Positions 34,475 to 63,919 of a stretch of 64,000 bases of DNA are shown here, in pieces. The DNA lies in the NCBI RefSeq assembly GCF_000203815.1, contig NW_004457729.1:2294674-2358673 (forward strand), written 5' to 3'. The translations under genes and the position numbers were made by a program. Origin of the DNA: Cavenderia fasciculata. Its lineage: Eukaryota > Evosea > Eumycetozoa > Acytosteliales > Cavenderiaceae. The notes below the pieces were generated by a model, which searched no databases, was not told where the DNA came from, and worked only from the letters and a program-made list of their open reading frames with translations. Position 1 is the first letter of the stretch. Every line of letters begins with the position of its first letter.

Positions 34475-35432
34475 ATGGCATTAAATAAATATATTGATCA
34501 TAGTAGAGAAGAATTGGAATCTAATGATCAACAACACCAACAGGGAGCTGGACGATCATTAAAATTATCAACCATTTTCAAAATTGAAGATTTTATTCCA
34601 GAAGCATTTAAAATATTGGTGATTGGACAAGTTGCTGTTGGCAAAACAACCATCGTCAGTAAACTAACTCATGGTTCTTTTCCATTTGATAAGGAAAAAA
34701 CTCATAAACCAACTGTATGTCAATCAATGTATTTGGAAATATTTTAAAATAGATCTAAATATTAATATTAATCATTTATAAATGTCAAAGATTGGAGTAG
34801 ACTTTTTTCTTAAAAAAATGCAATTGGATCATGATGGAACCAAAGAAGTAAAATTACAGATTTGGGATTTGAGTGGACAAGATAGATATATTGTAATGTC
34901 AAGGCCATATTTTCACAATGCCGATGGTGTTGCTTTGGTTGTTGACCTCAGTCAACTTGAACAAACAATGGAACACGCTAAAAAATGGAAAACAGAAGTA
35001 TATTCAAGATTAGATAAAGATATTCCTTGTATTTTATTGGCAAATAAGGTAATTAATAGAAAACTAAAACAAAAACAAAAACAAAAACAAAAAGATTATT
35101 AATTCTAATTTTTTATTATTCTTACATACTAGTATGATAAAATAGAAGAAAATGAAGAAAATTTAAAAGATATTACAGATAAATTAAATCTATATACAAA
35201 AGAAAATAATATTGCTAGTTGGGCATTCACATCGATTAAACATACCAACATCGATGAACCTTTTAATATTTTGACTAAATTGGTGTTTGAAGATTTGGAA
35301 TTAAAGGTTCAATCAAAAAATAAGGAAAAGTTTTCAGAGTTTAAACCTGAAAGAGAAAATTCTTTCAAAGTTCAAAATACTTCTTCATCAACAACAAAAA
35401 ATAGAACTTGTGGTGGATGTACCATTCAATAA
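34475..35432 (+). CDS. Rab-family small GTPase, divergent (Rab32-like)
   Basis: Three exons (34475-34714, 34791-35048, 35133-35432) join in phase 0 to 265 residues. A 48-residue N-terminal extension precedes KILVIGQVAVGKTT (P-loop). Then KPTIGVDFFLKKM with the switch I Thr, WDLSGQDR in place of the usual WDTAGQER, LLANKYD with the N-K-x-D motif split by an intron, and FTSIKH as the G5 loop. The IGVDF...LK pattern with a polar switch II recalls the Rab32/38 subfamily, which acts on contractile-vacuole and lysosome-related membranes in amoebae. The end RTCGGCTIQ is a CaaX-type prenylation site with an extra Cys, rather than the usual double-Cys Rab end. The catalytic Gln is kept. Subfamily placement is tentative. 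Confidence 0.82.
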
Positions 35433-46577: not shown

Positions 46578-48029
46578 ATGGATAGACAAGATATATCATC
46601 ATTTATTGGAGGAACAGATCTAGCAGCTGCACCAATCCCAACCGTTATATTCAATCTACCAAAAGAACATGAACTACGTTTTGAAGTTGAACATGGTGAA
46701 ACTGCTCTCATAAAGGTACCTACTATCAATCAATCAATGAATGTAGTAATAGGTTATTATTGTCAACTATACTAATTAACATTTCCTTTTCTCTTTCTAT
46801 TTAAGTTGATTGAAGGAAATGCAGAATACTTTGGTACAGAGTTATTATTAAATAGAGAATATAAATTGACAGGATGTAAAGGAGCAGTGTTTACATGGAA
46901 TTCATGCAAGTTGGAAGTATCACAATCGACAAAGGCATATATTGCAAATGAGACTCCAATGATGCAATATGCTCGTGTACACAAGATCATGGATGATATT
47001 CGTATTTCATGTCTTTCGAATCGCGAGTCTGGTCCCAAAGTGATCATTGTCGGACCGACCGACGTTGGAAAGAGTTCAATCTCCAAGATTCTATTGGGAT
47101 ACTCTACACGTCTAGGTTATGCACCGACATTTGTCGATCTCGATCCCGGACAAGGATCAATCACCATACCAGGTGCTGTTTGTGCATCACTTGTAGACAA
47201 ACCCGTCGATATTGAAGACGGACTCACAAACTCTCTACCATTTGTTCAATACTATGGACACACCTCACTCGATGCCAACCCAACACTCTTTAAAGCGTTG
47301 GTGTCAAGTCTGGCGACTTCAATCGAAAAGCGTATGGAAACCAACGAACAAGCAAGAGTGTCGGGTGTCATTATCAATACTTGTGGTTGGATTGATGGTC
47401 TAGGTTATGAGATCCTCATCGATTCTATCGATATTTTCAAAGCAAATCTTATCGTTGTCATGGATAATGATAAATTGTACAGTGAATTAAATAAAAAGTA
47501 TACAGGTGCCATTAAAGTTATTAAATTACCAAAATCTGGTGGTGTAAGTAAAATAGAAAAGAAAAGAAAAAGAAATATATATTAATTTATTTGTTTTTTG
47601 GTTTTTTAGGTTTATCTTAGATCACCAATATTTAGAAAGAAAACAAGAATGTCAAAGATTAGAGAATATTTTTATGGTATATCAGGTGATTTATGTCCAC
47701 ATTTTACTATTTTGGATTTCAAAGATATAGTTGTTTTAAAAACAGGTGGTGGTCCAGCAGCTCCATCTTCAGCACTACCAATTGGTGCTCAATCAGTGAT
47801 TGATCCACTTCAATTACAAGAAGTTACACCATCGACCGATATGATCCATTCAATCCTCGCAGTTTCCTATACCAAATCAAAACAAAGTATTTTAAAGAGT
47901 AATATTGCCGGATTTTTATATGTCACTGAGGTCAACCTTGAAACTAAAAAAATGACCGTATTGGCTCCTTGTCCAGGTTTAATCCCTTCAAAATTCTTAT
48001 TAATGGGTACATTAAAATGGTTAGAATAA
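46578..48029 (+). CDS. clp1: Clp1, mRNA 3'-end/tRNA-processing polynucleotide kinase
   Basis: Three exons (46578-46715, 46806-47543, 47610-48029) join in phase 0 to 431 residues, the usual length. Seen are the N-terminal beta domain (ELRFEVEHGETALIK; LIEGNAEYFGTELLLN), the Walker A loop GPTDVGKSS (about 129-137), the FVDLDPGQGSITIPG motif unique to the family, GVIINTCGWIDG, and the C-terminal domain (MTVLAPCPGLIPSKFLLMG). Clp1 phosphorylates RNA 5'-hydroxyl ends and is part of cleavage factor II, acting in pre-mRNA 3' processing and in tRNA splicing. Yeast Clp1 is inactive as a kinase; here the Walker A Lys and Ser and the D-x-D-x-G-Q loop are intact, so binding of ATP and possibly catalysis are expected. 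Confidence 0.95.
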
Positions 48030-49752: not shown

Positions 49753-50768
49753 CTCTCTTTCCTCTTTTTCTTTTTAAAAAAAAAACTACGTATAATTTTA
49801 AAATGAATGGAAATAGAAATAGAAATCTTTATATTTAATTGTTTACTTTTTTAAAAAAAAATAAAGGATTGTTTGATAGATATATCTAGGATTGTAAGGC
49901 ACACGCGAGTTTGCATGCTTTGTCCAGAGCAGCACCACCACTCTAGTTTTAAGTATTTTTGATACTAAAATAAGAGTTTGAAGAGAAATTATAAAAATCG
50001 TAACACCATTGTGTTTAAAGTTGGTGTGGTGGGTGTGTTTTTTAAAACTAGATTTAGAGATAATACAATGATACAATGCCCGACATTTGTTTTTTTTTTC
50101 AACAGATAATAAGAATTTATCTATCTATCTTTTTATCTGTTTAATATTACTTTCTTTCTCTTGATGAAAGTTTAAACCTTTTTTTTTTTTTTTGATAATG
50201 ATCATCATCATCATAGTTTAGTTTAGTTTGGTGGTTTAAAAACATAACATTAATGTTTTAGTTTTAGATTAGTATTTATTTATTTATACTAATCTTGTTT
50301 GATCAGATATATATCAGATAAAAGTAATGAATTGGTTTTATCCTTGAAATAGCTTCTGGTTGTCATCGCGATGAAAGCTTCAAAAAAAAAACAAAAAACA
50401 TCAAAAAAAAATAATCTTTTGTTGGAGTGAGTTGGCTTCATGTGTTGGAGAGATTGGTGATAGATAATAGTACTATTATTGAATTGTATAATAACTTGTT
50501 TCCCTTTCTTTTTCTTTGTAGCAGCAGTAGTAGTATAACGTCGACAATAGATCAACCCTCTCCTCCTCCTCCTCACCAATAAAACACATCATCTGTAGAG
50601 TATCAACAAACAAACAACAAAACAAAACAAAACATCCCTCTTTTTCTTTCTTTCATTCATTCATTCATCAATATCTATACACATCTTATATATACTTTTT
50701 ATATAAATATACATTTTCACCCATATATAACAACAACAACATAGAATAATACATACAATAATACAGAA
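49753..50768. other. Divergent promoter region, 1.0 kb
   Basis: Lies between the aspartic protease and the Rac gene. A short less AT-rich patch at 49885-49945 and a perfect 12-bp palindrome TCATCGCGATGA at 50362-50373 stand out from simple-repeat DNA. The last 200 bp are CAACAAAC/CATTCATT-rich, typical of a dictyostelid 5' UTR. The short open frames here are not supported. Confidence 0.4.
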
Positions 50769-51741
50769 ATGGTTAAAGATATCAAAGTTATGGTCGTAGG
50801 TGACATGAGTGTCGGCAAGACTTGTCTTCTCATCTCATACACTACAAACAGGTAAGTTGAAACTAGGCTAGTAAAAGATAACCTATTCTCTAATACCCTC
50901 TTTTTGGTCTCTCTAATCTTTTAGCTTTCCAGGTAATTAATTCAATAGTTAACCACATCTATTGTCGCGATAGGATATACATTTTAAAAATCATCTAAAA
51001 CTAACAACAAACTACTTTATTACTCTTTTCTTTCTTTCAAATACTTTTATATATATAGGCGATTATGTTCCAACTGTCTTTGGTATGTAATGAATATGGA
51101 TCAAATATATCAACATAGATTCTAACTTTTTTGCTATTTATTTACTCTCTCTAGATAACTATAATGCCAATGCAATTGTAAATAGTACACCTGTCAATCT
51201 TGGTTTGTGGGATACTGCAGGATCAGAAGAATATAATAGTTTTAGACCACTTAGTTATCCAGGTACCGATGTTTTCCTTATTTGTTTCAGTCTTATATCA
51301 CAACTTAGTTTTGAAAATGTTATCAAAAAAGTATGCAAAAAAAAAAGAAGAAGAAGAAGTTTAACTTTTTTCTCTCTCTCTCTCTCTTTTATTTAATCTA
51401 ATTGTTTATTTGTTTGTTTATTTTTATAGTGGTATGCAGAAATTACACAAAATATGGATGTAGTACCACCAATCATATTGGTAGGAACTAAATTGGATTT
51501 AAGATCAAAGCAAAAGATCAATGGTGAGGACCCAGTTACAGTAGAGATGGGAGAACAAATGAGAGCAGAGATTGGAGCCTTTAAATATTGTGAATGTTCT
51601 GCATTGACTCAGGATGGTTTGACAAATGTTTTTGAAGAAGCTGGTAGAGTTGTCCTCTTTCCACCTTCAAAGGAAGAATTGGCTGCCCAAAATAAGAAAG
51701 GAAAAGATGGAAAAGATCCAAAGAATTGTATTATACAATAA
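50769..51741 (+). CDS. Atypical Rac-family GTPase
   Basis: Five exons (50769-50851, 50925-50932, 51059-51082, 51155-51330, 51430-51741) join to 200 residues; exon 2 is only 8 nt and exon 3 is 24 nt, yet every junction restores the conserved Rho/Rac sequence [20 protein letters not shown]. The rest is clearly Rac: [47 protein letters not shown] and a CaaX end CIIQ for prenylation. Two key residues are changed: the P-loop reads GDMSVGKT, so the Gly12 equivalent is Met, and switch II reads DTAGSEEYN, so the Gln61 equivalent is Ser. Each change abolishes GTP hydrolysis in Ras and Rho proteins, so this is probably a constantly GTP-bound, Rnd/RhoH-like switch. It is expected to act on actin at membranes. 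No paralogue name is assigned. Confidence 0.88.
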
Positions 51742-62319: not shown

Positions 62320-63919
62320 ATGAGTCTTTCTGGATTACCTGCTGTAGTTATCGATAATGGTACAGGGTAATTATCAATCAATCAATCAAACAGAGAGATA
62401 TATAGAGAGAGAGTTAAAAGTAATAGTAATCACAGTAGTAGTAGTAGAGTAGTAGTTAGTAGTAGATATATAGACAGCACTATATATATATATAAGATAG
62501 ATACATACAGATATGATAAAAAAGAGATATCATACCACTACGATATATGATTACTTTTACCTTGGTTTCTCTCTTTCTCTCTCTTTCCTCCTTATCATTT
62601 TATCTAATCATCTTTTACTTTTCTTTAATTTACATTTTTAGTTATACAAAGATGGGTTATGCTGGTAACGATGATCCAAGCTTTATTATCCCATCAACCA
62701 TTGCCACTCATGAATCAAAGGGAAAGCAAACTGCTGCCTCTATGAAAAAGGGTGTTGAAGATTTGGACTTTTTCATTGGTGATGAAGCCAAGGCCAACGA
62801 AAAGACCTACGACATTAACAACCCAATTCGTCATGGTCAAATCCAAAACTGGACTCATATGGAACAATATTGGGAACACTGTATCTTTAAATATTTACGT
62901 TGTGAACCAGAAGATCATTATTTCCTTTTGGTATGATAGATATATATAATTTATATATATTTCCTATTTCTCTAATTTATTTATTTTCTACTCTTTAGAC
63001 TGAACCACCTCTTAATGCACCAGAAAATCGTGAATTCACAGCTGAGATTATGTTTGAAACTTTCAATGTCCCAGGTTTATATATTGCAGTTCAAGCCGTA
63101 TTGGCCCTTGCCGCTTCATGGACATCAAAGAATGTAACTGAAAGAACCTTGACTGGTACAGTCGTCGATTCTGGTGATGGTGTTACTCACATTATTCCAG
63201 TGTCTGAAGGTTACGTCATTGGTAGCTCAATCAAGCACATCCCAATCGCCGGTAGAGATATCACTGGTTTTGTTCAACAAATCATGAGAGAACGTGAACC
63301 AACCATCCCACCAGCCGAATCACTCGAGATTGCCAAGCGTGTCAAGGAGCAATACTCGTACGTATGCCCAGATCTCGTCAAAGAGTTCACCAAATACGAT
63401 AGTGATCCAAGCAAGTGGTTCAAGACCATCAACACTCAAGATGCCGTCAGCAAGAGACCATACAGCTACGATGTTGGTTACGAACGTTTCCTCGGCCCAG
63501 AAATCTTCTTTAACCCAGAGATTATCTCGTCTGACTTTTTGACCCCACTCCCAAAGGTCGTCGACGACACTGTCCAATCGTGCCCAATCGATTGTCGTAG
63601 AGGTCTCTACAAGAACATCGTCTTGTCTGGTGGTTCCACCATGTTTAAGGACTTTGGCAAGCGTTTGCAACGTGACATTAAGCGTTCTGTCGACTACCGT
63701 ATCAAGCGTTCCGAAGAACTCTCTGGCGGTAAGCTCAAGGCTGTCCCACTCGAAGTCAACGTCATCTCTCACAACATGCAACGTTATGCTGTCTGGTTTG
63801 GTGGTTCTATGCTTGCCTCGACCCCAGAATTCTACAATGTCTGTCACACCAAGGCCAAATACGACGAAATCGGTCCATCCATCTGTCGTTATAATCCAGT
63901 TTTCGGAACCATGGGTTAA
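62320..63919 (+). CDS. arpC: Actin-related protein 3 (Arp2/3 complex)
   Basis: Three exons (62320-62366, 62642-62930, 62999-63919) join in frame to 418 residues, exactly the usual Arp3 length. The nucleotide-binding cleft is intact: [18 protein letters not shown] (phosphate 1) and [20 protein letters not shown] (phosphate 2), with the adenosine loop [19 protein letters not shown]. Arp3-specific parts include [28 protein letters not shown] and the C-terminus [12 protein letters not shown]. Arp3 with Arp2 mimics an actin dimer and nucleates branched filaments downstream of Scar/WASP and Rac. The first intron, 275 bp, is the longest in the gene and follows a 47-nt exon that ends within the Gly codon of NGTG. 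Exon 3 uses many C-ending codons, typical of high expression. Confidence 0.97.

Follow-up and report, generated by a model that had tools for sequence, protein, structure and literature searches.

Can a Rac protein still work when both residues of its classical off-switch have been replaced? The question is raised by a gene on the forward strand, at positions 50769 to 51741, of a 64,000-nucleotide stretch of Cavenderia fasciculata DNA (contig NW_004457729.1, positions 2,294,674 to 2,358,673; hereafter the window). A preliminary description, made from the letters of the sequence, had read this gene as a Rac with methionine in place of Gly12 and serine in place of Gln61. Both the spliced reading frame and an alignment of the 14 Racs that we rebuilt from the genome bear this out: 12 of the 14 carry Gly12 and Gln61, and the window Rac carries neither. 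By kinship the gene is a Rac, and its product is most likely an atypical one, without the classical Gly12 and Gln61, that would work like Rnd or RhoH while probably standing outside both families.

The gene consists of five exons separated by four GT-AG introns, and its spliced frame of 603 nucleotides comprises 200 codons and a TAA stop. By direct reading, an in-frame TAG lies 5' of the start codon at positions 50742 to 50744. A spliced aligner guided by the same protein returned identical exons, minus the stop codon, which is a consistency check and not an independent one. The second exon is a microexon of 8 nucleotides that is required for the frame. The encoded protein belongs to the Pfam Ras family (154.9 bits), and its nucleotide-binding boxes, switch I (PTVFDNY), Trp56, G4 and G5 boxes and CaaX motif are all intact; Ala59 and Glu62 are kept, and the family alignment shows Phe28 to be retained. 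The preliminary description had called everything outside the two catalytic positions normal. This was right for the boxes, switch I, the CaaX motif, the frame and the splice sites, but the family alignment also shows V7M, D65N, R66S and L67F, and the Rho insert, although present, has a gap of six columns relative to Rac1. Some amoebozoan Rho members have shorter Rho inserts, according to the review by Filic (PMC8305917). CaaX ends are found in 11 of the 14 Racs of the genome, the window gene included, and 2 of these 11 end in glutamine; two of the three remaining Racs have no CaaX motif, and the gene model of the third, a RacA-like gene, stops short of its end. A CaaX box with glutamine as its last residue points to farnesyl as the attached lipid.

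The P-loop of the window Rac reads GDMSVGKT, versus GDGAVGKT in human Rac1, whose switch II is WDTAGQEDYDRL, and the printed alignment of the two proteins (Rac1 from 5fi0_B) is free of gaps from residue 3 through switch II. Across the genome, 22 of the 23 exact matches to a DNA pattern for WDTAGx[D/E] code for glutamine at position 61, all of them as CAA, and only the window gene codes for serine. This pattern controls position 61 only and passes over variants and motif-interrupting introns (a second unusual Rac, described below, reads WDSAGHQ), and the comparison for position 12 covers the 14 Racs alone.

The set of Racs was drawn from a genome of 30,995,898 bases in 21 contigs, in which a protein search gave 37 matches at E values up to 1e-6; 13 Rac-like loci besides the window gene were spliced. 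Matches at about 28 to 37% identity were set aside by eye as other GTPases, of which L050 was spliced, as was L026; L025 and C19_502 are one locus, and a family search scored 150 of 199 candidates. Gene models of the paralogues were computed without RNA, and some of their tails are uncertain. The alignment has 15 rows, the 14 Racs and human Rac1, with the G domain only in the Rac1 row and tails included in the paralogue rows. Three of the Racs stand in tandem at C18:1275825-1279798 (L034, L035, L036), with a common intron position and CSIL tails.

Human Rac1 and 12 of the 14 Racs keep both catalytic residues. Single losses are absent from the set, and both residues are missing from two genes: the window gene (Met12/Ser61) and a gene at C1:2130090-2130739 (L041, L071; Ser12/His61). 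The second has a divergent switch I (PTVIDVTS) and the CaaX box CILF. It is likely the orthologue of RacJ, because the switch I of D. discoideum RacJ is also reported to diverge (PMC8305917), and we refer to it as the RacJ-like gene. The preliminary description saw no reason to expect such a protein among dictyostelid Racs, a view that must be amended in light of a second Rac without both residues in the same genome. Two random losses per position among 14 genes would coincide with a probability of 1/91, a figure that assumes the two genes to be independent. The coupled loss could be explained if a change at position 12 that blocks the action of GTPase-activating proteins (GAPs) left Gln61 less constrained; in Ras G12V, an assay free of GAP and of guanine nucleotide exchange factor (GEF) showed weakened effects of Gln61 changes (PMC5538825). 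Table 1 of PMC8923023 gives 15 Rac-Rho GTPases for this species (Dfas) and likewise 15 for D. lacteum (Dlac). Two divergent-Rac queries of the genome did not find the fifteenth, and our counts rest on 14.

How constrained is the rest of the protein? A column was counted as conserved if 13 or all 14 of the other rows have the same residue. The window Rac departs at 5 of 56 such columns (V7M, G12M, Q61S, D65N and L67F), and its residue is the most frequent one at 51 of the 56 versus 62 of the 130 other columns, with its departures concentrated at the active site and switch II. Five departures placed at random would take in both catalytic columns with a probability of 0.0065, a descriptive value, since these columns had been named as odd beforehand. 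Departures in other Racs number 10 of 57 in the RacJ-like gene, 13 of 59 in C18_266, 8 of 56 in the RacA-like gene and 7 of 55 in C5_2120. The last three are more divergent than the window Rac, yet Gly12 and Gln61 are kept in all of them. Divergence alone fails to explain the loss, because the more divergent C18_266 retains both catalytic residues. The window Rac looks like a protein under selection with an altered active site.

Within the 15-row alignment, the window Rac is most similar to human Rac1 (64% identity, 112/175), followed by its closest paralogue (59%, 111/188), and it shares 44% (83/190) with the RacJ-like gene. With this identity over 175 columns and an end branch of 0.81, the earlier statement that it is close to Rac1 is only roughly true. 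The tree has little firm structure (2 of 12 inner branches are starred), and the window Rac has no well-supported partner in it. Approximately unbiased (AU) tests rejected neither a grouping forced with C18_1358 (p = 0.157) nor one with C19_259 and human Rac1 (p = 0.071). A sister relation to the RacJ-like gene, hinted at by a common intron, is borderline in the same test (AU p = 0.049), and the double loss may have arisen once or twice.

Three introns fall between codons 27 and 38 of the window gene, all of them in switch I, where each of the other 13 Racs has at most one. Among the rebuilt Racs, the phase-2 intron at codon 27 is common only to the window gene and the RacJ-like gene; the phase-1 intron at position 30 is also present in the RacA-like gene and the C18 trio, the phase-1 intron at position 38 is unique to the window gene, and the phase-0 intron at position 97 recurs in C19_502, C3_2178 and C7_1110. 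Intron positions common to three other sets of Racs suggest an old gene, barring parallel gain. Pattern scans for relatives gave 29 matches but no relative in a genome contig collection and no match in a viral contig collection; neither was built for dictyostelids, and both negatives carry little weight.

Which known Rho proteins does the window Rac resemble? Sequences of RhoE (1m7b, 2v55, 1gwn) and Rnd1/Rho6 in the PDB have the P-loop GDSQCGKT or GDVQCGKT and the switch II DTSGSPYYDNV. The Rnd proteins (RhoE/Rnd3 and Rnd1/Rho6) share with the window Rac a residue other than glycine at position 12 (Ser or Val), Ser61, and residues other than Arg-Leu at 66 and 67, but they have Ser59, Pro62 and Asn-Val at 66 and 67 where the window Rac has Ala59, Glu62 and Ser-Phe. 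RhoE is reportedly farnesylated, as named in the title of a paper, and the CIIQ end of the window Rac suggests the same lipid. Rac, plant Rac-like and Cdc42 proteins make up the best 60 of 827 PDB sequences for the window Rac, and no Rnd occurs in these 60. Membership in Rnd, which is altered at 12, 59 and 61, was rejected on the retained Ala59 and the kinship to Rac. For position 61 of RHOE, PMC9029563 gives aspartic acid, versus serine in the three PDB entries. RhoH, as described in PMC8072805, resembles the window Rac in having lost conserved residues, which makes RhoH GTPase-deficient, in its short Rho insert and in its retained CaaX motif, and differs in an immunoreceptor tyrosine-based activation motif (ITAM)-like motif. 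A likeness to Rnd and RhoH had been proposed in the preliminary description. It is supported by Ser61, as in RhoE and Rnd1/Rho6, and by the short insert, as in RhoH; by kinship and by Ala59 the protein is not of the Rnd family.

The Rac1 subfamily (human Rac1 and the dictyostelid Racs) has the same Rac switch I, Trp56, G4 and G5 boxes and CaaX motif, and the window Rac is set apart from it by Met12, Ser61, D65N, R66S, L67F, the six-column gap in the Rho insert and the final glutamine of the CaaX box. The RacJ-like Rac has likewise lost both catalytic residues and has the codon-27 intron, but differs in its divergent switch I and low identity. The fast-cycling Rho proteins (RhoU, RhoV, RhoD and RhoF) have the classical residues at 12, 59 and 61 (PMC9029563), from which the window Rac differs at 12 and 61. 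The literature attributes the GTPase deficiency of RHOE, Rnd and RHOH to changes at such positions (PMC9029563, PMC8072805, PMC13236570), and it describes GTPase-deficient Rho proteins as resistant to GAPs and GEFs and not bound by RhoGDI (PMC9029563). The window Rac is probably convergent with Rnd and RhoH.

We favor, with moderate confidence, the reading that the window protein is a GTPase-deficient Rac that is insensitive to classical GAPs and controlled by its amount and its membrane attachment. Gly12 gives room to the arginine finger of a GAP, Gln61 positions the water, and the arginine finger of RhoGAPs needs both residues. In Ras, GAPs are kept from acting by changes at 12 and 61 that do the fold no serious harm (PMC5538825, PMC8916776). 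In the window Rac, Met12 would keep the arginine finger of a RhoGAP from entering, and Ser61 would be unable to place the attacking water. The protein would load GTP after synthesis and remain GTP-bound, insensitive to classical RhoGAPs, and the altered switch II residues 65 to 67 would probably also lower GEF and RhoGDI binding. Rac effectors should still be bound through PTVFDNY and Trp56, because switch I and Trp56 are intact. Output would then be set by the amount made, by degradation and by attachment to the membrane through CIIQ. We infer the GTP-locked state, the resistance to GAP, GEF and GDI, the effector binding and the mode of regulation from the sequence.

Several points weigh against a GTP-locked Rac. 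Ala59, which is altered in RHOE, is unchanged, and the end branch of the window Rac is long. Rab29 lacks Gly12 (it has Ala12) and Rap1B lacks Gln61 (it has Thr61) (PMC8916776), so that a GAP supplying the missing group could still act. These two cases also make the rule of the preliminary description, by which loss of Gly12 or Gln61 always blocks hydrolysis, too strong: from the loss one can predict that a classical arginine-finger RhoGAP would be resisted, which is not proof of no hydrolysis. Moreover, dictyostelid GTPase genes turn over fast, with 68% confined to a single species (PMC8923023), and D. purpureum has no orthologue of several D. discoideum rac genes (PMC3188802). Finally, the review of amoebozoan Rho proteins, in its section 5, gives the G1 to G5 boxes and both switches to members and names no GTPase-deficient one (PMC8305917).

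The window Rac might instead still cycle by an altered mechanism, either through high intrinsic exchange or with a GAP that contributes the catalytic group from outside (in trans), in the manner of RapGAPs and TBC RabGAPs. We consider this unlikely, although it deserves weight. The demand of the RhoGAP arginine finger for the two residues lost here and the retained Phe28 argue against it, as does the fact that the fast-cycling Rho proteins keep the classical 12, 59 and 61 (PMC9029563), which the window Rac does not. In its favor, many proteins of the Ras superfamily have replacements at Gly12 and Gln61, Rab29 and Rap1B being named (PMC8916776), and 47 Rac-Rho GAP genes are tabulated for Dfas versus 15 Rac-Rho GTPases (PMC8923023, Table 1).

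More doubtful is a relaxed or decaying Rac copy, the catalytic residues of which drift as the protein matters little. The end branch of 0.81 without a well-supported partner would fit such a copy, as would the fast turnover of dictyostelid GTPase genes (PMC8923023). However, the 200-codon frame is intact across four introns, the departures are grouped at the active site and switch II, and the intron positions common to three other Rac sets point to an old gene, though parallel gain could also produce them. With conserved residues kept at 51 of 56 columns versus 62 of 130 others, we rejected pure decay as the leading explanation, in agreement with the preliminary view that this is not simple decay; the gene otherwise looks constrained. 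We give only a slim chance to a natural antagonist that would hold GTP plus effectors or exchange factors without signaling and damp the other Racs, as reported for RhoH; the short Rho insert is as in RhoH (PMC8072805), but the fully Rac-like switch I favors productive effector binding. An assembly or sequencing error at codons 12 and 61, the calls at both of which come from the assembly, is hardly credible: a slip is unlikely because no fewer than two bases must change for either replacement (GGN to ATG; CAA to TCA), the frame and splice sites are clean, and a second Rac carries a different double replacement.

Table 1. Parts of the Rac gene and its product, with positions in the 64,000-nucleotide window
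Feature	Position	Strand	Content
Exon 1	50769..50851	+	Start codon, beta-1, P-loop GDMSVGKT
Met at Ras/Rac position 12, codon ATG	50805..50807	+	Gly in 12/14 Racs of the genome
Exon 2 (8-nucleotide microexon CTTTCCAG)	50925..50932	+	With its neighbors codes N-S-F-P-G, start of switch I
Exon 3 (24 nucleotides)	51059..51082	+	Switch I, DYVPTVF
Exon 4	51155..51330	+	Remainder of switch I region through switch II
Ser at position 61, codon TCA	51223..51225	+	Gln in 12/14 Racs; sole Ser among 23 genomic WDTAGx[D/E] sites
Exon 5	51430..51741	+	LVGTKLD, shortened Rho insert, CSAL, lysine-rich tail, CaaX CIIQ, stop TAA
CaaX box CIIQ (prenylation signal)	51727..51738	+	Final Gln suggests farnesyl

The window holds further genes on the forward strand. 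A small-GTPase-like gene at about 34600 to 35430 codes for the P-loop GQVAVGKT, carries DLSGQ as its switch II motif and ends in CTIQ. At 46776 to 47582 there are domains of the polyadenylation factor CLP1 (Pfam CLP1_P and CLP1_N). An actin-family gene at 62520 to 63916, which we take to resemble Arp3 (Pfam Actin, 187.8 bits, run on 62999 to 63916), is separated from the Rac gene by about 11 kb, a proximity that is probably accidental.

A literature search covering parts of papers found no mention of Gly12 or Gln61 loss in a dictyostelid Rac, and the always-on Rho proteins in the reviews are the animal Rnd, RhoH and RhoBTB. The window Rac and the RacJ-like Rac together hint at always-on Rho-family proteins evolved by amoebae themselves. 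It is conceivable, and we put it forward tentatively, that a class of constitutively GTP-bound Racs arose within the dictyostelids, outside animals and perhaps on two occasions, in the effector-competent window gene (Met12/Ser61) and in the RacJ-like gene with its altered effector loop (Ser12/His61), and that in the window gene splicing of the 8-nucleotide microexon could be an on/off control that replaces GTP hydrolysis. Splicing could act as such a switch because skipping this exon breaks the frame, which is an idea only. If it holds, splicing would be linked to GTPase control; if instead a special GAP acts on the window Rac, it would be an unusual one among the GAPs of Rho proteins. Should amoebae prove to be an independent case, having converged with Rnd on Ser61 and on changes in that same region of switch II, evolution would seem able to discard the off-switch repeatedly. 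Such a case would also offer a genetically tractable group for asking how cells control a Rac without an off-switch.
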